Positions 9,522 through 44,217 of a stretch of DNA of 64,000 bases are shown here, one piece after another (the first letter of the stretch is position 1; the number at the start of each line of letters is the position of its first letter). The translations under genes were made by a program, and so were the position numbers. Under the pieces are notes generated by a model that had not been told where the DNA came from, made no database searches, and worked only from the letters and a program-made list of their open reading frames with translations. The DNA comes from Lachnospiraceae bacterium (GTDB lineage Bacteria; Bacillota; Clostridia; Lachnospirales; Lachnospiraceae), in assembly GCA_014803415.1 (NCBI GenBank), contig JAAVBZ010000046.1:1-64000 (forward strand), in the 5' to 3' direction.

Positions 9522-10217
9522 TTATATTTCAACGTCATTTATAATATCCGCCACGATCTTGCCATCCATAATGCGGATAATTCTTTTCGCTCTGGCAGCA
9601 ATATCATTATCATGAGTGATCAGGATAACCGTCCTGCCTTCCTTGTGCAGGCCCTTTAATATTTCCATAATCTCTTTGGTGGATCCTGAGTCCAGATTAC
9701 CTGTAGGTTCATCCGCCAAGATCACAGGAGGGGCCTGGGCAATTGCCCTTGCAATGGCAACTCTCTGCTGCTGGCCGCCGGACATCTCGGAAGGTTTATG
9801 ATCCATTCTTCCTTTTAATCCTACTTTTTCAAGTGCGATCTCAGAAAGCCGAAGGCGTTCCTTTTTCCCTACTCCTCTGTAAATAAGCGGCAGTTCCACG
9901 TTTTCAAGTGCTGTCAGCCCGGCTATCAGATTAAATCCCTGAAAAATGAATCCGATCTCTTTATTTCTGATATCGGAAAGTTCGTCATCCGATAAGTGGG
10001 AAACATCCTGACCGTTTAATATGTAAGTGCCTGATGTGGGAACATCCAGGCATCCAAGCATATTCATCAATGTGGATTTTCCTGAACCTGACTGACCGAT
10101 AATGGCTACAAATTCATTCCGGGCAATTTTCAGATCTACATGGTCAAGCGCCCTCACTTCATTTTCACCCGGGTTATAAATCTTACACATATCCCGGATT
10201 TCAACTAATTCATCCAT
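9522..10217 (-). CDS. ABC transporter ATP-binding protein (MacB/LolD type)
   Basis: ATPase of 231 residues with Walker [10 protein letters not shown] (about 42-50), signature SGGQQQR (146-152), Walker B ending ADEPTG (168-173) and the H-loop LITHDNDIA. The QGFNLI Q-loop form and short length mark the MacB/LolD subfamily. ATG 10217 has AAGGAG 8 nt upstream and is preferred to an ATG seven codons earlier. First gene of a three-gene operon with its own promoter. Confidence 0.95.
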
Positions 10218-32256: not shown

Positions 32257-33126
32257 TTATAGGCCAAACCTCCCCATGCCCTTTATAAAAGAATCCAATC
32301 CATGCAATCTTTTCACTCTACGTAATTTAATTCCACACACATCACAAATCTGTTCCAGACATGCCTCTACAATAATATTAGTCACACGAATCTCTTTCGG
32401 GGCACCATATTGAAAAATAAAATGTATCACCATTTCCGCGAGTATTATATTCGGATCATCATCCGGTTCTGCCATTTCAAAATTTATAATCATTTCCGAT
32501 TCCGCATCTCCCAGAAGAACTAAGGCAGGATTTGCCGGACGACTGTATTTTTTATCATCTATCCTTGCTCCCATGGCTGAAATATCAGCTTCTAAGACGG
32601 CACTACTCTTCGGTGCCTCCGCTAAATCGACAAGTAATTCTTCATCAGTGATAAGCAGATTTCCAAATTGAAAAGATGTAAACGGCAATGGAGCCTCACC
32701 AAAATTCCGTGTTTTTTTATCTTTATCAAATGAAAGCAGGAGCATGTTACCATGCTCAAAGTCTACTTTCATATTTACATCATTATAATCTTTTAACGCC
32801 AGTTCCAAATCCTGAAAATATTCACTCAGACGAACCACCTCTTCTGAATCCAAATTATATGGATAATATCCCGGTTCAAAAGACAGAAAGTAAAGCCATT
32901 GATTTTTACCCCTGTAAGAATACCCCAAATCCTTAATAATCTTTCTCTGTTTATCTGTCAACTCATCACGATTTCCCCAATAGCAAGTCAGATTCCTCTG
33001 ATTGAACATGGCATATTCCGCAGTTAAATTCATATCCCAAAACTTTTCCCAAGGCTTTAACTCTTTAATTCGTGTTGCTGCCCCATACAGCACTCTCCAC
33101 TGCTCTAATGATGCTTCTTTTCTCAT
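32257..33126 (-). CDS. Hypothetical protein (DUF7309/DUF6930-like)
   Basis: A 289-residue cytoplasmic protein. The N-terminal half (LYGAATRIKELKPWEKFWD, then YPYNLDSEEVVRLSEYF) and C-terminal half (MVIHFIFQYGAPKEIRVTNI, LEQICDVCGIKLRRVKRL) recall proteins carrying DUF7309 and DUF6930; function unknown. The coding frame starts at the third of three tandem copies of the start region; two five-codon minicistrons precede it. Paired with the large gene upstream, separated by only 37 bp. Confidence 0.75.
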   Translation of the reverse strand: MRKEASLEQWRVLYGAATRIKELKPWEKFWDMNLTAEYAMFNQRNLTCYWGNRDELTDKQRKIIKDLGYSYRGKNQWLYFLSFEPGYYPYNLDSEEVVRLSEYFQDLELALKDYNDVNMKVDFEHGNMLLLSFDKDKKTRNFGEAPLPFTSFQFGNLLITDEELLVDLAEAPKSSAVLEADISAMGARIDDKKYSRPANPALVLLGDAESEMIINFEMAEPDDDPNIILAEMVIHFIFQYGAPKEIRVTNIIVEACLEQICDVCGIKLRRVKRLHGLDSFIKGMGRFGL

Positions 33127-33163: not shown

Positions 33164-34936
33164 CTATTTTCTCTTAGTATCTATAAAGCCATAATTTCTC
33201 ATTGCTTCCCGAAATGCACTCCTTCGCAGATACTTATCCTTATACAATGTCATAAGTCTCTGCTTTGCACCTATTTCTCCCATTGACTCCCGCACCTCGC
33301 CCAGAGCGGCTATATACGATGCACATTCTCCATAATAGTTTCTTCGGTTTGCATCCATAATTCCTTCTGTTCGCTTTTCAAGCAGTGCTTCGATTCTTTT
33401 TACTGCACAATTTCTAATATCAGATTCCATTGGCACCATAGACTTCCATTTAAAAAATAATTGGCAAAACAAATCGTTTTCGCCTATCTCTTCAAGCCCG
33501 CAAGTGCCTTTTCTGTATTCTTCCGCTGAAAATCTCATTGCACCTTTTACTATCTTTGCCATAGCAGCAATTCCCTTATCATTCCATTGCCCCTCATGCA
33601 AGTATAACAGATACAACGCGATTCCCTGTTTCATAAAAGACCCTGTCCATCCTAATGCCTCCGATCTGTTCAATCCTTTGGCCAATACATCCTCAAACTG
33701 CCCGTCTAAAAATCTGAGCAGTAAAACCATATTGCTGTCGGGTCTGTTTTCTTCTCTCTCAGAGCATGAATAACTTCTTTCATACATCCCAAAAGAATCG
33801 CTGCTTTTATGTACGGATAATTTCATGAAGATCTTTTGAAGTTCTTCCCCTTTCTTTTCGTTTTCACAACCATTTAACAGCACCCGAAGATAATTCAGGG
33901 CAGATGTATCTGATTCAAACGCGGCAACATAACACTTTTCCAGCAGAGATAATTCCCTACCGGCTTCAATAGCATATTCAGCCGTTTTCAACGCTACCCT
34001 ACTAAGCATAATATACTTCTTTGGTATCGTCTTCATCGCTTCTATTCCTATAGATACCATATCATTTGCCGTCATATATTTCCCATTTTCCAATATATTT
34101 AAATATAATCCCGGATGGACAGCAGCATATTTTTCCGCATACTGAACCTCCAAAGGAACATCATTTAACAAGCTCACAGCTTCCAAGATAAGACGGTCAG
34201 CATCATGCCCTGCCTTATCGCCAAGATATATGATCCAGAGCGGCAAAAAATCTTCAAGCGCAGGTAATTCCTCATCTCCATGCTGCATAATTGCTTCTAA
34301 TGTGATTTCATCCCTTTTTGCATTTACAATAATCCCATACAATGCCTCCGGACGTTTGTCGGGTGTCACTGCATGATATGCACAATATACTGTGTCAAGG
34401 ATAACCTGTTTCAGATCACAGTTCAAGAGCTCATGATATACCATGTCTCCAAGAGAAAGTTCTTCATCGCCATACTCACTATCGCATAGAATTTCCATTG
34501 CAAACATTTGATTTCCAACTTCAAAGCCTTCCTTATATCTCTCCCTGTCCATACAAATATGTACAAAGTCACAGGCTTCCTCCAGCATAGCCGAAATACC
34601 GCCATTGTCTTCATAATAAAACTCCTCGTCACTATTGTCATACCAGTCATCATATTCTTCGTTCAATATTCCGGTAATAGTAACTTCCTGTGAATCAATA
34701 CTCTTTAGATTATCTCTAATGCGACTGTACATTTCATCGAATTCAATATCTTTCGTCCTATTCTCGTTTGAGGCTTTTTCCCCTTTATTCCCGGCAGATT
34801 TCAGCATCTCCAAAAAATCTTCCCTGCGGTATTCCGGAAAAACTCTCCCGATATCATGGATAAATGCAATGAGCTGCCCCGGTGAGTATTGTGCCGTAAG
34901 GGTATCTATCTGTTTTAAAAAATTTGTCAGATTCAT
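33164..34936 (-). CDS. Large hypothetical protein, helical-repeat type
   Basis: I do not recognise this 590-residue protein. It starts MNLTNFLKQIDTLTAQYS and is mostly helical, with an acidic stretch YDDWYDNSDEEFYYED (about residues 98-113) and recurring helix pairs from 130 on, similar in layout to the C-terminal part of SWIM-type zinc-finger proteins, though no zinc motif is present. ATG 34936 follows GGAG with 7-nt spacing; an upstream TTG is rejected. Ends 10 bp before the first minicistron of the next gene, so it is likely one operon. Confidence 0.6.
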   Translation of the reverse strand: MNLTNFLKQIDTLTAQYSPGQLIAFIHDIGRVFPEYRREDFLEMLKSAGNKGEKASNENRTKDIEFDEMYSRIRDNLKSIDSQEVTITGILNEEYDDWYDNSDEEFYYEDNGGISAMLEEACDFVHICMDRERYKEGFEVGNQMFAMEILCDSEYGDEELSLGDMVYHELLNCDLKQVILDTVYCAYHAVTPDKRPEALYGIIVNAKRDEITLEAIMQHGDEELPALEDFLPLWIIYLGDKAGHDADRLILEAVSLLNDVPLEVQYAEKYAAVHPGLYLNILENGKYMTANDMVSIGIEAMKTIPKKYIMLSRVALKTAEYAIEAGRELSLLEKCYVAAFESDTSALNYLRVLLNGCENEKKGEELQKIFMKLSVHKSSDSFGMYERSYSCSEREENRPDSNMVLLLRFLDGQFEDVLAKGLNRSEALGWTGSFMKQGIALYLLYLHEGQWNDKGIAAMAKIVKGAMRFSAEEYRKGTCGLEEIGENDLFCQLFFKWKSMVPMESDIRNCAVKRIEALLEKRTEGIMDANRRNYYGECASYIAALGEVRESMGEIGAKQRLMTLYKDKYLRRSAFREAMRNYGFIDTKRK

Positions 34937-35012
34937 ATCGTGTCTCCATTTTTCCAAGCAAGCCTCTTCTTGCTGCTTCTTTATGCAACAATTCTATATT
35001 CCAAAACGCGGC

Positions 35013-35158: not shown

Positions 35159-35213
35159 TCACTTGATGGTCGTAGGCAACACGGCCTGAACCAACTGTTC
35201 TACCACCCTCACG
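35159..35213 (-). pseudogene. Fragment of a tuf 3' end (EF-Tu C-terminus)
   Basis: Codons from 35213 to 35175 read [13 protein letters not shown], identical to the corresponding EF-Tu residues encoded at 43083-43045. The 39 bases differ at 7 positions, all synonymous. After a few shifted bases the sequence continues ACC ATC AAG TGA, which would be the usual EF-Tu end (T-I-K-stop) in a shifted frame. A stop codon precedes the fragment. It is in the same orientation as the intact tuf gene. In another frame the same bases read VVEQLVQAVLPTTIK-stop, so a mobile-element end is an alternative. Confidence 0.65.
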
Positions 35214-35736
35214 GTTTTATGCGGGGGAAATCACTGTGATTTTGCTTGATTTATAGGGATTTTTCGGCGTTTTTTTCTTTGATATTCGCCTTGTATCTGA
35301 CGTCTTTCAAATTTTTGTTATCATGGTGTTATCACAGTTACCTTGGGTCTGCAACTTAAATCTTGAATTATTATTCTCTTATAAGCGTACCACAAATTAT
35401 TTCAACTTCCATTTTTACTTGTAAATATGCTCTTTTCATAAAATTGCCTTTTCTATACCGGAAAATAATTCATAGCTTAATGCAACTTATTATAACTTAA
35501 ATCATGCCCTAATCAAAATATCCTTCATATGACGGCCTTGTTGTATCTGTCCTTACAGATTAGGCTAGTGAAATCATCAGTGAACAATTGCGTGTTTTCT
35601 GTTTTTTTGCCATTTTGTATTCACATGAACTTCGGTCATTTTTTTGACCGAAGTTTACGCCGCCCAAGTTATAGCTCATATAATCCTCATTTTATATTAC
35701 CAGTTTTCTGCTTCAAATAAATTATGTTATTGTATA
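35214..35736. other. Gene-free AT-rich stretch with scattered repeats
   Basis: About 520 bp without a supportable gene. It contains a perfect short palindrome ATCACTGTGAT (35229-35239), two 11-bp near-direct repeats TGTTATCATGG/TGTTATCACAG (35316-35337), and at 35628-35654 an inverted repeat copied from inside the AlbA_2-like gene. A 63-codon plus-strand frame across the last part is the antisense of that copy. Confidence 0.5.
35628..35654. repeat. Copy of a coding hairpin from the AlbA_2-like gene
   Basis: AACTTCGGTCA and TGACCGAAGTT arms around a T-run match 37415-37442 almost base for base. On the minus strand it reads NFGQKNDRSS followed by CEYKMAKKQ, the same residues (NFGQKNDRS) found in the linker of the protein encoded at 37170-38726. 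It is therefore a remnant of a related gene or of its 3' part; the following T-rich side could also make it work as a terminator. Confidence 0.6.
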
Positions 35737-37149
35737 TCAACTCGATTTTCTACTAGCAGATAATCTCTTTTGAGCATCTATAATATACAAATATGGCACT
35801 ATTCCACCTGATTTTTGTCTCCTTAAGTATGCCTGTTTAATTTTTTTATCTTTTTGTGGATGCTTTTCAATTTTCACATAAACATAAATACACTTGTTCG
35901 TTTTTTCTGCTTTTGCATAAGTCTCTATCTGTTCCTCATATCCATGAAGATAATCAGGATTTGTATTCAGTTTTACCTCAATAATTGTCTTATCTTTTGA
36001 CCCTCTACTGATTTTAATATCAGCAGGTCCCGGTCCCTCGTTTGGTTCAAATGTAAAATCAAAATTATTATCCTCACAATATTTAAGCCCACTTAACTGA
36101 ATAAGCCCTTGAACAGTTTTCTCACGCTTTGCAGAAGGTGCTGACAAGATTATATCCCATCCCTTATTATCTTCCACCCAAAATTTAAATATATCTAATA
36201 CTTTTAAAGAAACCTCCCAACTTCCAATCCCAGAATGGTCTGAGTGCTCTAAGAAATTAAACGCACCGCTACGTTTCATTTGCTTAAATATTGTTGCTAT
36301 GAAGTATTCAATATCAGATGCCGGTGAAAATCTACCTATTTCTTCATTTTTATACCCTTCAATCACATGGGCACAACGCTTTGAGTCTTTAAATATATAC
36401 TCTTTTAAATATGATTTTTTCTCAGAAGATGCAAGCTTTCTCCACTTATTTCCAATTACCTCATTTACTTCTTCCCTTATAACCCTGTTTTCCGCAATAA
36501 CACGGTCTATATCATTCCAACAACGAGCAATGGGCAATTCATGCAAAATTTCTTCTGGCAAGTATAGAAGCTCACATTTTTTATAGGGATTAATAACTAC
36601 ATCGTTAAGAAATTCGACTTCTGGATAATTCTCTTGGTTTATGCCAAGTTCTACATTGATTCTTTTGGTATATGCCAAGATATCTGGAAGAATAATTGTT
36701 GCAATCATATCACTTAACCGATCTGCTCCAACATTCTCTTCAAATAACCCAACTAGTTGAAAAATCTCTGGCTGATTAGATCCGGTTTTTACAATATCAT
36801 AAGCATCACTTATTACTTGTTTTGACAATACTTTCCCAAAACCTGCACCCATGCTAGATTCTGAAAAGCCTAAATTTATACCATTTACTTCAGAAAACTG
36901 AAACCTTTCCAACGCATTTCTATATAATTTATCATTTTTCTGATTTGAATTTTGTAATAAAATCATTATCTTGCCAAAAAAGTCATTAATTCTTTCATAT
37001 GAACCAACAAATTCTGGTGTTTGTGCTTGTTTTAATCGCAGTACATTAATGAAAAAATGGCTGTCACGATCAATAAGAGCATCAAATACTCCAAGTTCAT
37101 CCAATTTATTATCTAATTCCAGAAAATCCGATATAAATACTCCATTCAT
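35737..37149 (-). CDS. Putative PD-(D/E)XK nuclease-domain protein
   Basis: A 470-residue protein. The first ~330 residues are an unrecognised helical region. The C-terminal part shows a PD-(D/E)XK-like pattern: GPADIKI with Asp377, EVK with Glu391 and Lys393, and QIETY with Gln407 and Tyr411 (QxxxY as in RecB-type nucleases). That makes DNA or RNA cleavage plausible but unproven. It begins 20 bp after the AlbA_2/ATPase-like gene and should be co-expressed with it. The locus lies in the accessory zone beside tuf, so a defence role is a reasonable guess. Confidence 0.65.
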   Translation of the reverse strand: MNGVFISDFLELDNKLDELGVFDALIDRDSHFFINVLRLKQAQTPEFVGSYERINDFFGKIMILLQNSNQKNDKLYRNALERFQFSEVNGINLGFSESSMGAGFGKVLSKQVISDAYDIVKTGSNQPEIFQLVGLFEENVGADRLSDMIATIILPDILAYTKRINVELGINQENYPEVEFLNDVVINPYKKCELLYLPEEILHELPIARCWNDIDRVIAENRVIREEVNEVIGNKWRKLASSEKKSYLKEYIFKDSKRCAHVIEGYKNEEIGRFSPASDIEYFIATIFKQMKRSGAFNFLEHSDHSGIGSWEVSLKVLDIFKFWVEDNKGWDIILSAPSAKREKTVQGLIQLSGLKYCEDNNFDFTFEPNEGPGPADIKISRGSKDKTIIEVKLNTNPDYLHGYEEQIETYAKAEKTNKCIYVYVKIEKHPQKDKKIKQAYLRRQKSGGIVPYLYIIDAQKRLSASRKSS

Positions 37150-37169
37150 CTCTCTATCCTCATCAATTC

Positions 37170-38726
37170 CTAACTTTCATTTACATCTATAACATTAGAT
37201 ACCTTGTAAATAATGTTACTTGTATTCCCATTTACCTCAATATACCCTGTCTCTACAAGCATAGATAAGTATCTATACGTAGTTGATTTCGATTTCTGAA
37301 TTATTGCTTCAGCGGCTTGCGGTGTAATTTTCCCATTTTTATCTAAATATTTAATGATAGGAAGTAGTTTATTATAATTTCTTTTCGTCAAAACTTCGGT
37401 CAAAACTTCGGTCAAACTTCGGTCATTTTTTTGACCGAAGTTCTCATTATTCACCCTGAAACCTTTATGAATCTTTACAGTTGTAATCATATAGGTTCTA
37501 TCTGCATCTGTCTCAAATTCCGGCAATGGTGAACCATTTCTTTCCAATTCACGCAAAATTTTTGATATTCCCGTGGATTTTTTCTCGGACAAGTCAATTT
37601 CTTTGAAAAATTCTCCGATTTTAGGATTACGGTATCTTCTTGCCCGGACTTTGCCAGCAGCAAACTTCTCCATATCAATGTAATGTTCCGGTCCCGGAAA
37701 GTTGATGATCTGTATCTGATCCACATATATCCTGATTTCTACTGGCACATCCTCTTTATAATTCTTGTGCAAAACCGCATTAACAATCGCTTCTTCTAAA
37801 GCATTATAGGGATAATTGAAGAAGCGGTCTGCTTCTGCTCTCCCATCAACTTTTACAACCTTTTCCTCAATCACATTTGTTTTGATATAGTCCAGAGCAT
37901 CCTTGACCTGCTTCCAGATCGGACCATAAAACGTCTTTTCCGTAAAATCTGATGCCTCTGCCTCTTTGTCATGAAAACGCACCAACTCAATTTTACTTCC
38001 GGAGATCAGCTTGTCCGGTCTTTCTCCAAACATGAGCAGTCCTATGTTTTTAATTGCAATTCCCTCATCTTTTTCTTCCGCCACTTCTTCAGAAACTAAT
38101 AAGTCTTCCAAAGAACGCACATTCAGTTCTTCTATCAGTGAACTGTTACTTTCTCTGATAAAGTCTTCCAAGTAGCCTCTGCGTATTTGTTCCATAGTCG
38201 CCCGACTGTTAATACGATCCACAAAAGGTATTGATGTGAATTTTTCAAAAAGCTCCGCTATCTCACTTTGCTTCGCCTCTACTGTTAGTGATGCCGGACG
38301 GATCCAATATTTCATAGTACGGTTTGGTTCTTTTCCAGATTTCTTTTTTGAATACACATCTACAGGTGCCTGATAGGGACCAGCATCACCTGCCGCACAT
38401 TTCAGATAAAGCAAATTTGCACCTTGATATTCCACAACATCAATTTTAGGAATATAGCGAGGTTCAATCTTATTACAGTATTCAAATAATTTCAGTTGAA
38501 TATTATCAAGTTCTTCATTAGGCAATCCTACCGGCGGAAGAATTGGGATTCCATCTTCTGATTTTACACCAATTACAAGATATCCTCCGTCGACACCAGC
38601 AATATCATTGGCATATGCGCATATGGTATGCACAATATCTTCGGGGTTAAAGCCTGCCTTGTATTCAATTCGATTTCGCTCAACTTTGCGACCTTGCAAT
38701 AAAGTCTCGATTTTTATCGGGATCAT
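37170..38726 (-). CDS. AlbA_2-domain protein with HATPase_c_4-type domain and winged helix
   Basis: A 518-residue protein of the Schlafen/AlbA_2 group. N-terminal AlbA_2 domain with ERNRIEYKAGFNPEDIVHTICAYAND-like start (part quoted) and GYLVIGVKSEDG; a middle region YNALEEAIVNAVLHKNYKE as in HATPase_c_4 (often labelled RecG-like); then the linker NFGQKNDRSLTEVLTEVLTK and a C-terminal winged helix (ITPQAAEAIIQKSKSTTYRYL). Such proteins are regulators or phage-defence components. ATG 38726 has TTAGGAG 8 nt upstream. The IS630 element is inserted about 65 bp upstream, in its promoter region. Confidence 0.82.
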   Translation of the reverse strand: MIPIKIETLLQGRKVERNRIEYKAGFNPEDIVHTICAYANDIAGVDGGYLVIGVKSEDGIPILPPVGLPNEELDNIQLKLFEYCNKIEPRYIPKIDVVEYQGANLLYLKCAAGDAGPYQAPVDVYSKKKSGKEPNRTMKYWIRPASLTVEAKQSEIAELFEKFTSIPFVDRINSRATMEQIRRGYLEDFIRESNSSLIEELNVRSLEDLLVSEEVAEEKDEGIAIKNIGLLMFGERPDKLISGSKIELVRFHDKEAEASDFTEKTFYGPIWKQVKDALDYIKTNVIEEKVVKVDGRAEADRFFNYPYNALEEAIVNAVLHKNYKEDVPVEIRIYVDQIQIINFPGPEHYIDMEKFAAGKVRARRYRNPKIGEFFKEIDLSEKKSTGISKILRELERNGSPLPEFETDADRTYMITTVKIHKGFRVNNENFGQKNDRSLTEVLTEVLTKRNYNKLLPIIKYLDKNGKITPQAAEAIIQKSKSTTYRYLSMLVETGYIEVNGNTSNIIYKVSNVIDVNES

Positions 38727-38790
38727 GAAATCATCTCCTAACGCTAATTGCCCAAACACTGTTTCTGCATTTCAATCTATAAATTTACTC

Positions 38791-40080
38791 TAGTACTTCG
38801 TCCTTTAATTAACTGGACTTTTTAATCGGAAGCGTGTCAACAATAACCGTTTCCGATACATCAACATCATCAAGATTATATTTCCAGTGAAATACAACCG
38901 GCTCCTCATTTGCTTCGTTAAAATATTTATATACACGGTCTGTGAGTTCTTCCTTGGATTTTACACGGATACCGCGAAGCATCTGCCGGGTCATTTTACT
39001 GAAAAAGCCTTCAACCATGTTAAGCCATGATCCATGCTTGGGCGTGAACACAAATTCAAACCTGCCAGGAATGGTGGCAAGATATCTCCTTGTTTCTTCA
39101 GAAGTATGTACTTTGAGATTATCAAGCACTATACGGATCTTATCTCCTTTAGGGTACTTTCCGTCCAGCAGTTTTAAAAATTCGATGTATTCCCGGCTGC
39201 TGTGCTTATCCCTGATAAGCGGAATGCATTCTCCCGTCTGGAGGTCTATGGCAGCAAGAAGTGATACAGTTCCCAGTCTTTTGTATTCATAATCACGGCA
39301 GAACGTACTGTGTTGCTCATCAGGTCTTAAATCATCTGATGTTGTGGCTATAGCCTGTATCCCCGGCTTTTCATCATAGGATAGTACATGTACCATCTGC
39401 CCGTTCCCGGGGGATGGGATCAGGTTCCCGTTCTCATCGAACTGGAGCGAAAGCTGCTTATACACCAAAAGGACATTGTGCATCTTTGCATCGAAATCAG
39501 GATCACGGTTTTCGCAATAATATCTGATTTTATGAGGCTTTATATCCGCTTCTTCAAGAATGGTGTTTACCGTGCTTTTATGTATAGTGGAAAGCCTTGT
39601 AAATCCTGCCGCTTCCGCTGTTTTATTGATATGGGATGTCAGCTTGACATATGTCCATGTTTCAGCTGCATATCCAAAATCAACAGGTTTTTGGCAGGCG
39701 AGATTGATGATCCATGCTTTTTCCTCATCCGTGATCTCAGCATTCCTGCCACGTCCGGGTGCATCAAAAAGAGCATTTTCAATGCCGCCCTCCTTATATT
39801 TCTTAAGGCAGAGCATAACACTTTTTCTGTTTATGCCAACCTTATCGGCTATTTTGTCAATTGAAATGCCATCAGCTTTTAGCAAAAGGATTCTTGCCCG
39901 GATAACAGTTTGTGCTTGAATGGTACGTGCCCTGGTTTGCAGTTCAAGGTAATCGCGTTCGGCTTTTGTAAGTTTAATAGATGATGCATTTCTTCCCATG
40001 GTATTGTCCTCCGAAATTATTTGGATTCATTATACCATAGTAAAAATATTTAGTCCGGTTATCAAAAAGACAAAATACTA
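38791..40080 (-). mobile_element. IS630-family insertion sequence
   Basis: Imperfect 27-bp terminal inverted repeats (20 of 27 matching) begin at 38793 (GTACTTCGTCC...AACTGGACT) and end at 40078 (AGTCCGGTTA...ACAAAATAC). A TA dinucleotide flanks each side (38791-38792 and 40079-40080), the expected IS630 target duplication. It carries a single intact transposase gene. About 1.29 kb. Confidence 0.88.
38809..39999 (-). CDS. IS630-family transposase
   Basis: Transposase of 396 residues, apparently intact. The N-terminal HTH (ILLLKADGISIDKIADKVG and VGINRKSVMLCLKKY) is followed by a DDE domain: VLSYDEKPG (first Asp), IRIVLDNLKVH (second Asp) and SWLNMVEGFFSKM (Glu). GGAGG lies 8 nt before the ATG. 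It inserts at TA. Its presence in the accessory zone is consistent with recent rearrangement. Confidence 0.95.
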   Translation of the reverse strand: MGRNASSIKLTKAERDYLELQTRARTIQAQTVIRARILLLKADGISIDKIADKVGINRKSVMLCLKKYKEGGIENALFDAPGRGRNAEITDEEKAWIINLACQKPVDFGYAAETWTYVKLTSHINKTAEAAGFTRLSTIHKSTVNTILEEADIKPHKIRYYCENRDPDFDAKMHNVLLVYKQLSLQFDENGNLIPSPGNGQMVHVLSYDEKPGIQAIATTSDDLRPDEQHSTFCRDYEYKRLGTVSLLAAIDLQTGECIPLIRDKHSSREYIEFLKLLDGKYPKGDKIRIVLDNLKVHTSEETRRYLATIPGRFEFVFTPKHGSWLNMVEGFFSKMTRQMLRGIRVKSKEELTDRVYKYFNEANEEPVVFHWKYNLDDVDVSETVIVDTLPIKKSS

Positions 40081-40240
40081 GTATGCATTTATATTACATG
40101 CATATATCATTATTAGGATTTTGACTACATATAACAGAATATGTTTATCCTGCTTTCTAGTTTTTCAAACATCCCTCACAAATTATTATTCAACCCTTTT
40201 CAAATCTTCAAATTTTGCTCTGCGATAATGATTTCTATGA
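40081..40240. other. Spacer, no feature seen
   Basis: AT-rich stretch between the IS630 element and the end of the RCC1-repeat gene. No gene, hairpin or promoter is convincing here. Confidence 0.4.
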
Positions 40241-41935
40241 CTACTCTAACATAATACCTTTCCAACAGTTCACTTCATCGCTCTGGTTGTAATCATTGTA
40301 ACCCACCGCTATTGTTGTCCCATCCGCTTTCAGACCGATTGTGGTTCCACAGCCGGCTGAAACTTCAATAATGCCTTCCCAATCGTCCACATCACAAGCA
40401 CCCAAATAGAATGGAGCATCATCTGGCTTTGTTGAGACAACTGTACCATCTGCACGCAAACCAACCGTATGCCAGTCTCCCGCAGCAATCGCTACGATAT
40501 TTCTCCACTCTTTACCAGTAACATTACACTGCCCATAACTATTATCTCCAACAGCTACAACTGTACCATCTGCACGCAAACCAACCGTATGCCCAGAACC
40601 GGGATTATCGCTACTACCGCCTCCCGCAGCAATCGCAATGATATTTGTCCATTTATCTTTTTCTTTTTCAATTTGCTGTTGCTGGGAAGATGAACCATAT
40701 CCTGTAATCCATATTTTTCCATTTTTATCTAAACCAACCGTATGCCTCCATCCTGCAGCAATGGAAGTAATGCCTTCCCAATTACTAACATTCCGTTGCC
40801 CATCGCCTTCATCGTGTCCTTGACTAACTAGAGTTCCATCATTTTTCAGGCCAATTACATATCTTTCTCCTGCTGCAACCGCAATAATATTCGACCAATC
40901 GCTGACATCAATGTTGGAAAGCTGATGGGATGCAACGACCGTACCATCATACTTCAGACCGATAGTAACAGCACTTTTTGCTGAAATGGATACTATATTA
41001 TTCCATCCTGAGACATTGCTCTGTCCAACCTCATTATAGCTAGTAGCAATAACTGTTTTATCATTTTTGATTCCAACTGTATAACGTATTCCTGCAGATA
41101 TAGTAGTTGCTAACTCCTGACGCTTTAGTCTATCTTTGCAATCCTGCGCCAAATCTTCACTGTCTAAGTAGTCACCCAATTTTTCAAATTCTGTCAACGC
41201 TGAAGTGTAAGACTCCATGTAATAAAGCCTGCATGCTTCTTCGTAAACTGTAAGCTGCCTGCTTTCATATAAAATTAAAGCTATCTGTGCAACATATAAT
41301 TCGCTCTGACAGTAATCACCTAATGTCTGAAATGTTAAAGTTGCTATCTCATAATTTTCAAGTTCATATTGTTCAATTGCGTACTGATAAGTAGACTCTT
41401 TAAATAGATATTCACTGTCTTCAAAACTCCCTAGCTCTTCAAAGGCTTCTGCTGCTTCTATAAAATTCCCTTCATCAAATAATTTTTGCGCCGATCGATA
41501 GTCAAGCCAATTTTGGGCCGTTTCAATTTGATCAAGACTGTCTTTATAATTGCCTAGTTCTTCAAAGGATATTATTGCATCAAGGTAATCTCCTTCGTTC
41601 ATATCAGAAAGGGCAGCTTCATAGCGATTGTTTGCAAGCCATTTTAAATGGAATGAATTAGCAACAAATATTACTATTGTTATTAACATAGGAATCGCAT
41701 GTATAATGGTTTTAATTTGTACATAATTGTGTTTTGAATTCGTTTTTTCCTCGGGAAAAGACAACTTCGAAACTTCAACGGAATTATCATCAATATTTTG
41801 CGAAAAAACTCTTGAACTAGCCACCTTTGAATACTCTTTTTTTAATAAATGCTTTTCGATGATTTCAAAACTTTTGAGAAGGATAACAAGGACAATCCCT
41901 ATTATGCAAGAAATGGTAATTATCATAAAGTTCAT
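40241..41935 (-). CDS. Membrane protein with TPR-like and RCC1-like repeats
   Basis: A 564-residue protein. Two N-terminal transmembrane helices (about 3-20 and 78-96) flank a cytoplasmic linker. Then follow four to five TPR-like units with the recurring pattern A..FE.LG.Y.DS (about 105-270), and six or seven RCC1-type repeats (280-564) with the core IAAGxxHTVGLRADGTVVA. RCC1 repeats usually build a beta-propeller for protein binding. Function unknown. Its start overlaps the stop of the small membrane gene by 4 nt (ATGA). Confidence 0.8.
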   Translation of the reverse strand: MNFMIITISCIIGIVLVILLKSFEIIEKHLLKKEYSKVASSRVFSQNIDDNSVEVSKLSFPEEKTNSKHNYVQIKTIIHAIPMLITIVIFVANSFHLKWLANNRYEAALSDMNEGDYLDAIISFEELGNYKDSLDQIETAQNWLDYRSAQKLFDEGNFIEAAEAFEELGSFEDSEYLFKESTYQYAIEQYELENYEIATLTFQTLGDYCQSELYVAQIALILYESRQLTVYEEACRLYYMESYTSALTEFEKLGDYLDSEDLAQDCKDRLKRQELATTISAGIRYTVGIKNDKTVIATSYNEVGQSNVSGWNNIVSISAKSAVTIGLKYDGTVVASHQLSNIDVSDWSNIIAVAAGERYVIGLKNDGTLVSQGHDEGDGQRNVSNWEGITSIAAGWRHTVGLDKNGKIWITGYGSSSQQQQIEKEKDKWTNIIAIAAGGGSSDNPGSGHTVGLRADGTVVAVGDNSYGQCNVTGKEWRNIVAIAAGDWHTVGLRADGTVVSTKPDDAPFYLGACDVDDWEGIIEVSAGCGTTIGLKADGTTIAVGYNDYNQSDEVNCWKGIMLE

Positions 41936-42426
41936 CTATCCTCCTTTTCTTCAAATTTGTCAGGGTTTTCTTCTAGAGGCTCCTTATTCTCAAGTCCATC
42001 GGCATCCTCTACCAAAAGCATAATGCTATCTATAGTGATGATAGCTAGTGAAATAAGTGTTAAATCCATTAGTGTTACACAGTATGGATTGTATGGAGTT
42101 TTCGTAAAATATGAAGCTGAAATAATCGTAATATAACTGTTTATAAAAGCAAGAGCCATTGGTAATATTTTTGTATAAGATTTTCTTTCTATAGCAGAAA
42201 AAGCATATTCTATTATCATCGCTAAAGCAAACATCAAAAACCCGCTACCCTTTACAGCAGTATCTGAACTATCAGTAATACCTTGCAATCCAAAAATCAT
42301 AGATATCCAAAAAATTATCGTCTTTGCAAGAGCTTCGCCTTTTCTATTGTATAAGTGTATATTATGTATAAAGAGACGTATCTTTTTTATAAGATTCCGC
42401 CAATTTATCTTTTTGTGCTTTTTCAT
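41932..42426 (-). CDS. Small four-helix membrane protein
   Basis: A 164-residue protein of unknown function with a basic N-terminus, four predicted helices (about 34-52, 60-80, 88-106, 118-138), and a Glu-rich cytoplasmic tail (ENKEPLEENPDKFEEKEDR). AAGGAAG is upstream. Translation-coupled to the RCC1-repeat gene, so the two probably work together at the membrane. Confidence 0.6.
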   Translation of the reverse strand: MKKHKKINWRNLIKKIRLFIHNIHLYNRKGEALAKTIIFWISMIFGLQGITDSSDTAVKGSGFLMFALAMIIEYAFSAIERKSYTKILPMALAFINSYITIISASYFTKTPYNPYCVTLMDLTLISLAIITIDSIMLLVEDADGLENKEPLEENPDKFEEKEDR

Positions 42427-42925
42427 TCTATTTCTTCCTTAAGTAAAGCAGTGGCAATAATCCTATAAATATTTTAATAATTACTACTCATGCCTGTTTA
42501 CATATATTTTTATTTACATTATATTATATGCAATTTCTTATAAATTTTAAAATCCAATTGAGATTTATTATTCAACCTTCCCACTACTTAATATGTTGAA
42601 GCTTTAAAAATCAATCCACTAATCTATACTCCTTGCAAATGCTACAATTGATTTGACGAAAAGCAATTATGCTACAGGGAAATTTATGTCATCTTTAATG
42701 TACTGCATATAGGAACCAGATAAATAGCGTTTAATTTTTACTTAAAATAGTTACAAATAAAAAATCATATTTTTCCCAACAGATCCGCTAATTTGACTAA
42801 TATAAAAGAGAAGCAGAATATCGTAAAATAACCAAATATTCGTTGTAGAACAACGTTCTCTCATTTTGAACATAAACCCAGAAATGCGTGTCTGCTTAGC
42901 TCGTTAACTGCAAAAATAAAATGTT

Positions 42926-42958
42926 GTAGTCATTTTGTAGTCATTTTGTAGCCATTTT
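42926..42958. repeat. Three tandem 11-bp direct repeats
   Basis: GTAGTCATTTT twice (42926-42936, 42937-42947) and GTAGCCATTTT once (42948-42958). One helical turn per unit, and 70 bp from the end of tuf. This resembles arm-type binding sites of tyrosine integrases, but no integrase gene is present. Confidence 0.75.
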
Positions 42959-42977
42959 AATTTACTTTTCATATATA

Positions 42978-43007
42978 AAGGCTTCCAAGCAAATGCTCGG
43001 AAGCCTT
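42978..43007 (-). terminator. tuf terminator
   Basis: Minus-strand AAGGCTTCC..AGCA pairs with TGCT..GGAAGCCTT, followed by TTATATAT rather than a pure T-run. About 25 bp after the tuf stop. Confidence 0.75.
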
Positions 43008-43029
43008 GAATTTACTGTAATTCTATTGA

Positions 43030-44217
43030 TTACTCGATGATAGTAGCAACCCTACCAGATCCAACAGTTCTACCACCCTCACGGATAGCGAATGTAAGAC
43101 CCTGCTCCATAGCGATGGGATGGATCAGTTCGATAGTCATTTCTACGTTATCACCAGGCATGCACATTTCTGTACCAGCAGGAAGGTTGCAGACACCAGT
43201 TACGTCTGTTGTTCTGAAATAGAACTGAGGTCTGTAGTTGTTGAAGAAAGGAGTGTGACGTCCACCTTCATCTTTGGTCAGAACGTAAACCTGAGCAGTA
43301 AACTTTGTATGACATTTAACTGAACCGGGTTTGGAAAGAACCTGTCCTCTTTCGATTTCTGTTCTCTGAACACCACGAAGAAGTGCACCGATGTTATCAC
43401 CAGCCTGAGCTTCATCAAGGAGCTTACGGAACATTTCGATACCGGTTACAACTGTCTTACGTGTTTCTTCCTTAATACCAACGATTTCAACTTCTTCATT
43501 GAGGTGAAGAGTACCACGCTCTACTCTACCAGTAGCAACTGTACCACGGCCTGTGATTGTGAATACGTCCTCTACAGGCATAAGGAAAGGCTTATCTGTT
43601 GCTCTTTCAGGATCAGGAATATAGGAATCAACTGTTGACATAAGTTCCATGATCTTGTCGCCCCATTCTCCGTTAGGATCTTCAAGAGCCTTAAGAGCGG
43701 AACCCTTAATGATAGGACAATCAGTGAAGCCATATTCTTCAAGCTGTTCTGTAACTTCCATTTCTACTAATTCGATCAGCTCAGGATCGTCTACCATATC
43801 GCACTTATTTAAGAATACTGTGATATAAGGTACACCTACCTGACGAGACAGAAGGATGTGCTCCTTAGTCTGAGCCATAACACCGTCAGTAGCTGCAACA
43901 ACGAGGATAGCGCCGTCCATCTGAGCTGCACCGGTGATCATGTTCTTTACATAGTCAGCATGGCCAGGACAGTCAACGTGTGCATAGTGTCTTGATTCTG
44001 TTGAATACTCAACATGGGCTGTAGAGATAGTAATACCTCTTTCTCTCTCTTCGGGAGCCTTATCGATGTTCTCGAAATCAGTAGCTTCGTTACCAGCAAC
44101 TCTTTCAGCAAGCACCTTTGTGATTGCTGCTGTTAAAGTAGTTTTACCATGGTCAACGTGACCAATGGTACCAATATTACAATGGGTTTTGGATCTGTCA
44201 AATTTAGCTTTAGCCAT
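43030..44217 (-). CDS. tuf: Translation elongation factor Tu
   Basis: GTPase of 395 residues that carries aminoacyl-tRNA to the ribosome. P-loop GHVDHGKT (19-26), [19 protein letters not shown] and the GSALKAL motif are intact, and the C-terminus is [17 protein letters not shown]. Last gene of the str operon. The very 3' codons use AGA and AGG for Arg, and a diverged copy of the same 39-bp stretch lies at 35.2 kb in the same orientation, which raises the possibility that the gene's end was replaced by an integrating element. Confidence 0.98.

Follow-up and report, generated by a model that had tools for sequence, protein, structure and literature searches.

An island bounded by two tuf 3' ends in a Lachnospiraceae genome is probably the relic of integrative elements that use the end of tuf as their attachment site

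The window analyzed here is a 64,000-nt stretch of DNA from a Lachnospiraceae bacterium (contig JAAVBZ010000046.1 of assembly GCA_014803415.1), whose genome, G000, comprises 4.26 Mb in 48 contigs and is 97% complete. It contains an intact tuf gene, encoding EF-Tu, on the minus strand at 43030..44217 and a decayed tuf 3' end on the same strand at 35159..35213, with an island of cargo genes and a transposase between the two. The original prediction, made from this stretch by itself, held that a mobile element had used the tuf 3' end as its attachment site, replacing it with a version of its own and leaving the original at the far edge of the island. Having compared the window with related genomes (G) and loci (L), we consider it very probable that the 35-43 kb segment belongs, as a decayed member, to a large group of integrative elements whose attachment site (attB) is the tuf 3' end.

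Thirteen codons at 35213-35175 (minus strand) encode the same protein letters as the EF-Tu end at 43083-43045, with 7 of 39 bases differing and an identical run of 18 bases that includes the C preceding CGT. These figures had all been part of the original prediction and were reproduced when recomputed, as was the arrangement as a direct repeat, for which the predicted separation of 7.85 kb on the minus strand measures 7,870 nt in the same orientation. All seven differences had been called silent; the last one falls at a 1-nt insertion, so that the fragment is frameshifted at that point. Past GTTGC, the fragment has this added base and then TACGACCATCAAGTGA where tuf has TACTATCATCGAGTAA, and its homology therefore extends beyond 39 nt to about position 35159, the limit of the 55-bp interval (35159-35213) first proposed; several changes follow GTTGC, an altered stop codon among them. 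A degenerate tail motif matched only two places in G000, the intact tuf and the window fragment, and a reversed-pattern control matched none. Scored with a 54-nt weight matrix from 175 junctions, the window's own two included, the fragment reached 31.3 bits, while five shuffled windows held nothing above zero; the same scan found no further tuf-tail site in the window.

Evidence that elements enter tuf at this point comes from a comparison of an empty and a filled site. In G087 (L184), two tails enclose a 12.75-kb element with integrase and Mob genes, and in G220 (L207) tuf is uninterrupted. Upstream of an 8-nt core, CGTGAGGG, the tuf genes of the two genomes are identical over 300 nt (300/300). 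The last 54 nt of the G220 gene match the far-side fragment of G087 at 54/54 positions, and the next 150 nt match at 148/150, versus only 43/54 and 37/150 against G087's own tuf end; an uninterrupted tuf in G214 ends in the 54 nt seen in G220. Since G220 thus corresponds to the G087 tuf upstream of the core and to the far fragment in its tail and beyond, the G087 element entered tuf inside CGTGAGGG, 17 codons ahead of the gene's stop, supplying a new synonymous tail and displacing the old one. This is site-specific integration with direct end repeats, and it demonstrates in the G087/G220 pair what had been proposed for the window, namely an attachment site at the tuf 3' end, a replaced tail and an original left at the far edge.

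By analogy with this pair, crossover in the window would have been confined to the core at 43076..43083 (minus strand), and the last 54 nt of tuf (43083-43030), which form attL, would be element-derived; the decayed 3' end at 35159..35213 is attR, presumably the original host tail. An incoming element would integrate within CGTGAGGG, bring its own synonymous 54-nt tail and leave the original tail on its far side; because it carries this tail, tuf retains the full EF-Tu reading frame.

We surveyed tuf tails outside tuf in 60 genomes, comprising G000, 35 others of its genus and 24 from other families of the order. The tail motif occurred in 30 of them, and reading of the loci separated intact tuf genes from fragments without a tuf body; fragments in the relatives start at CGTGARGG and are preceded by non-tuf sequence. 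Within the genus, reading of the matched loci, with match G027:C21 left out, placed a fragment in at least 11 of 36 genomes (G000, G005, G009, G014, G015, G023, G028, G030, G031, G032 and G033). Eight of the 24 genomes from other families had a match, in every case an intact tuf only. When genome contigs were scanned with a pattern that excludes intact tuf, by way of the Ile codon preceding its tail, at least 118 stretches matched; 118 of the matches found divided into 110 with a tail complete to the stop, 7 with an altered tail and 1 with tuf only, and since some contigs occur twice these are not counts of genomes. Among 80 matches listed, most were labelled Lachnospiraceae or one of its genera, about twenty had broader labels (Clostridia, Eubacteriales, 'Bacterium') and a few had foreign ones (Muribaculaceae, Bacteroides, Thermoflexaceae, Gemmatimonadales), which we take for misbinned contigs or, for Gemmatimonadales, chance. 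The plain motif matched 111 of 150 family genomes (one per genus), 17 of them two or more times, although only some of these 17 were read as loci and the second match in G094 looks unrelated. Searches of plasmid and phage DNA with the fragment region gave weak matches only, which led to L003 and L004. L003 (NZ_CP143948.1, 201428-211484) lies in a 251-kb Agathobacter rectalis record labelled as a plasmid, which may be a second replicon or a piece of chromosome, and there tuf is followed by a 3.75-kb tuf-type element with radical SAM and MFS genes.

The window copies (L001, L002) and two chance-like matches without tuf continuation (L106, L144) were dropped before junctions were counted, and removal of duplicates left 175 distinct junctions, of which 133 are fragments. 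The 132 fragments with at least 60 nt upstream fell by single linkage into flank families of 78, 22, 15, 3 and 2 members plus 12 singletons. The window belongs to the 22-member family, whose ends share about 115 nt; its own right end, conserved across these 22 junctions, lies at 35216..35336 (minus strand) and is 83% identical to L203:9717-9835. Such recurrent element ends abutting tuf tails again argue for an attachment site. L203 itself (9600-9835) has a right end homologous to that of the window but no tuf tail; a transposase-like ORF occupies the tail position, and the C-terminal end of this ORF resembles one beside the tail in L042.

These flanks also bear on what else the fragment could be. 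The protein-level likeness first noticed is the one point in favor of a remnant of a second tuf gene, an alternative raised in the original prediction, or of a partial tuf duplication. However, the homology starts at CGTGARGG and goes no further upstream than CGTGAGGG, the flank beyond it is an element end common to 22 junctions, and the motif finds one tuf in G000; we rejected this explanation on these grounds and regard it as extremely improbable. The other alternative raised, a dispersed mobile-element end, is in one sense correct, the fragment being itself the attachment site. We also considered that tail fragments might be a selected part of a gene, serving as a C-terminal fusion or peptide, and not attachment sites. 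At L036 (4110-5960), a CotH-family protein does run in frame into the tuf tail and would end in 17 tail residues, so that an element gene there seems to take the attachment site as its own 3' end. Yet an in-frame stop lies within 50 codons upstream in 122 of 124 fragments, which are therefore not the ends of fusion genes, the empty and filled sites show recombination, and the window copy is frameshifted, leaving a selected gene part highly improbable.

Several observations weigh against our interpretation of the segment as an integrated element at tuf. The empty and filled sites come from one filled genome and two empty ones in a genus other than the window's, and a search for an empty site for the window's own flanks through the neighbor genes at 33164-34957 and 32257-33126 found none. 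G010 keeps the order of tuf and neighbor gene, with other DNA between them and no second recognizable fragment. No integrase was found in the window; among 26 bounded intervals, only five contain integrase matches (L037, L183, L184, L186 and L187; 4.6-12.8 kb), and L185, whose ends match at 13.1 kb, has none.

The element ends carry a further signature. Right ends have a direct repeat of 11-nt period at -121/-110, complete at 8/8 bases in 83 of 124 junctions and at 7/8 in 16, versus 8/8 in 1 and 7/8 in 1 of 117 in a control stretch further upstream that was searched alike; the 15-member flank family mostly lacks it. Many left ends have similar repeats about 60-250 nt past the tuf stop. They resemble integrase arm sites, which we infer them to be. 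In the window, both sets lie on the minus strand: three 11-nt units with an 11-nt period (TGGCTAC, TGACTAC, TGACTAC) at 42926..42958 on the left, and TGATAACACCATGATAAC at 35317..35334, or -121/-110 from the tuf fragment, on the right. Both repeats were readable in 12 of the 26 bounded intervals (L003 included). Nine of these have the same repeat class at both ends (L003, L037, L083, L111, L149, L184, L185, L186 and L187), the ends of L076 nearly agree (TGACAAC/TGATAAC), and two show a clear mismatch, L035 and the window, where the left repeats are TGRCTAC and the right repeats TGATAAC. Four of the matching intervals (L003, L083, L111 and L149) are only 1.9-4 kb long and have no integrase match; such short intervals are possibly non-autonomous cassettes.

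Since its left and right repeats differ, the window is probably a composite of two tandem elements. The tail left by one element would serve as the site for the next, giving rise to tandem arrays, and a deletion would then have fused two tandem elements, keeping the left end of one and the right end of the other. That a tail can serve as a site follows from a prophage-type left end that lies after tuf in G029 and after the tail of another element in G030 (L012 and L013; 96.6% identity). Thus, of the one decayed element originally proposed, the relic without an integrase stands, but its ends appear to derive from two elements. It is also possible, though we think it rather unlikely, that the window is a single element that lost only internal genes and whose integrase tolerates both TGRCTAC and TGATAAC arms, given that the ends of L076 differ slightly too and that the repeats share a TGRYWAC-like shape. 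Against a single element, only L035 and the window depart clearly from the agreement seen elsewhere, there are TGRCTAC-class right ends that fall in a different flank family (L027, L031, L156), and both ends of the L156 interval have TGRCTAC-type units, with a single unit on the right. Against the composite origin, the left and right repeats differ at no more than 2 of their 7 bases. A further point against our overall interpretation is that in 14 of the 26 bounded intervals a repeat is unreadable on at least one side.

The inferred role of the repeats was examined in 24 integrases, each labelled by whichever end could be read. Their arm-domain identity was 71% for the same repeat class and 45% for different classes. 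After integrases more than 90% alike had been collapsed (24 to 16), arm-minus-catalytic identity was -2.8 within classes and -13.3 between, which was reached in 183 of 10,000 permutations. We conclude that the comparison supports a role of the repeats as arm sites without proving it, the proposal being weakly tested. Counting against it, the catalytic domain of the 24 was likewise closer within classes (72%) than between them (60%), the nearest relative shared the repeat class about as often by arm (13 of 18) as by core (14) or catalytic domain (13), and the TGGCTCT class does not fit the arm-specific pattern. One member of this class, L146, is possibly a composite too, since its arm is GGTGCC-like.

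The fullest relatives indicate what the window would have lost. The G087 element contains, in order from tuf, an unscanned ORF, an HTH_3 regulator, a tyrosine integrase, a CHC2 zinc-finger protein, a VapE-like ATPase and Mob_Pre, followed by Vsr, a C5 methylase, an NgoBV-type restriction enzyme and an AAA_15 ATPase beside the right end. It thus has an integrase of its own (Phage_integrase, E=1.1e-20, with Arm-DNA-bind_4 and SAM_3) as well as Mob_Pre (E=7.5e-13), and its nine scanned ORFs gave no conjugation-family match. A second element, in G177, encodes an integrase, AAA_25 and Mob_Pre. The fullest elements encode a tyrosine integrase (Arm-DNA-bind_4, SAM-like and catalytic domains), a primase/VapE or other AAA ATPase and Mob_Pre, and are like integrative and mobilizable elements (IMEs). 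Where it could be read, the distance between an integrase and the tuf or tail that precedes it is about 1.1-3.6 kb, except in L121 (0.4 kb). A prophage type (L012, L013, L044, L054, L173) has its integrase 122-132 nt away in reverse orientation, and in L062 the integrase is 122 nt away on the same strand. In L044, integrase, repressor, helicase, scaffold and major head genes lie beside the tuf tail, so at least one prophage uses the tuf-end site. Two further loci have other contents: L042 (3542-8160) has a tuf-type right end of the window's family, with the BREX genes BrxL and PglZ 2-6.5 kb inward of it, and two large serine recombinase genes lie 1.4 kb from a tuf tail on a viral contig (L174:7237-10118).

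Neither an integrase nor a Mob gene was found in the island of the window. An integrase HMM (E 1e-10) had no match among window ORFs of at least 60 aa, and a Pfam scan of the five larger island proteins gave no integrase or Mob match, in agreement with the predicted absence of an integrase. The window has therefore neither an integrase nor a Mob gene of its own, as a full IME would, within what these scans covered. It keeps attL and attR (the tuf tail, the fragment with its decayed tail, and arm-type repeats at both ends) and has lost genes for integration and transfer, judged by the integrase scan of ORFs of at least 60 aa and the Mob scan of the five larger proteins. It would thus be a relic of the cis-mobilizable kind, from which integrase, replication and Mob genes were lost.

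What remains between the ends is cargo, all on the minus strand. Behind tuf lie a 164-aa ORF without a Pfam match (41932..42426), a 564-aa protein with RCC1 repeats (40241..41935) and a transposase with DDE_3 and HTH domains (38809..39999), which is inserted within the island and which we take to be IS630-like. An SLFN_AlbA_2/HATPase_c_4 protein (37170..38759) has relatives 82-85% identical no more than 1.5 kb upstream of the tuf tail in L044, L134 and L166, and a further relative behind tuf in L053. Nearest the right end, a 470-aa protein without a Pfam match (35737..37149) weakly matches the phage-defense candidate PDC-M36A; a tuf element of another genus (L185) has its right end 0.4 kb from a gene that is 95% identical, and the protein is present in 4 of the 60 genomes, G000 included, at 48% in one and in pieces in two others. 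Most loci in this comparison had been chosen for their tuf gene or tuf tail, and these relatives are therefore not a genome-wide count. In kind, the window's cargo, some of which is defense-like, matches that of other tuf elements.

Movement of such elements between hosts is suggested by their identities. Elements in G177 and G086, which belong to different genera, share 93% identity over 7,465 nt (tuf included) and 96% over the last 1,587 nt, versus 84% over 2,426 nt on the fusA side. For G064 and G087, identity is 94% in the integrase region (1,892 nt) and 80% in host genes. The effect on tuf itself can be seen in full 1,188-nt genes starting with MAKAKF (34 genes, 29 distinct). In the 17 distinct full-length genes of the genus, codons 380-395 have a synonymous difference rate of 0.457, versus 0.230 for those before them, and none of 363 earlier 16-codon windows reaches 0.457; for all 29 distinct genes, the rates are 0.454 and 0.302, again with 0 of 363. 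The rise starts just past CGT GAR GGT. A nearest-neighbor listing of tuf tails over 38 nt did not separate host from element copies. The tuf gene is a conserved marker and reference gene in wide use, and given that mobile DNA overwrites its 3' end, the tail has a separate history.

IMEs with a tyrosine integrase are known to integrate in the 3' ends of housekeeping genes without disrupting them, and cis-mobilizable elements (CIMEs) as well as accretion into tandem structures at one site have been described (PMC5704250). The tuf elements resemble these IMEs in non-disruptive integration at a housekeeping-gene 3' end and in their tyrosine integrase and mobilization gene. They differ in target, the word tuf being absent from the available part of that text, and in that one core is shared by several integrase subgroups whose end repeats differ. 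The window is like a CIME in having lost integration and transfer genes while keeping attL and attR, but unlike a simple one-element CIME, its two ends appear to come from different elements. L044 resembles prophages at gene 3' ends in the phage genes beside the tuf tail and differs from the IME type in the placement of its integrase, reversed and 122 nt from the site. A literature search for tuf or EF-Tu as an attachment site found no report; it covered neither preprints nor most subscription papers, and an earlier report may exist. In the parts available, PMC4821235 names EF-Tu in a list of indel places without detail, PMC10654056 has the term in a reference title only, five papers treat tuf as an adhesion gene (PMC12382657, PMC9699202, PMC9366087, PMC11019378, PMC11464305), and PMC12904643 and PMC9092696 do not mention it. 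Thus, 3'-end integration, CIMEs and accretion were already known, and tuf as a target appears unreported in the literature searched, to the extent that its text was available.

More speculatively, the tuf end could be a family-wide docking port, at which several integrase subgroups share the 8-bp core within a gene that is essential and conserved and read different arm repeats, so that many elements could stack in tandem and excise independently. The repeat would then act as an address tag, the 1.9-4 kb cassettes, with cargo only and matching ends, could be moved in trans by any tag-matched integrase, and the tuf 3' end would be rewritten at every event; we think this picture possible but less likely than not. 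Tuf tails outside tuf offer a simple handle for delimiting mobile and defense-like cargo in a major gut family, and site recognition could be studied in the integrases, a natural set that combines one core with several classes of end repeat.

Two smaller features adjoin the attachment sites. Beyond the tuf stop, a hairpin seen by eye at 42978..43007 (minus strand) is a possible terminator; a terminator scanner run on the window's left end found none at this hairpin, which has a short T-run. Next to the fragment, a 597-aa gene without a Pfam match (33164-34957) has relatives that are 67-71% identical in three genomes of the genus and 28% in a fourth, and the G010 copy lies about 10 kb downstream of tuf.

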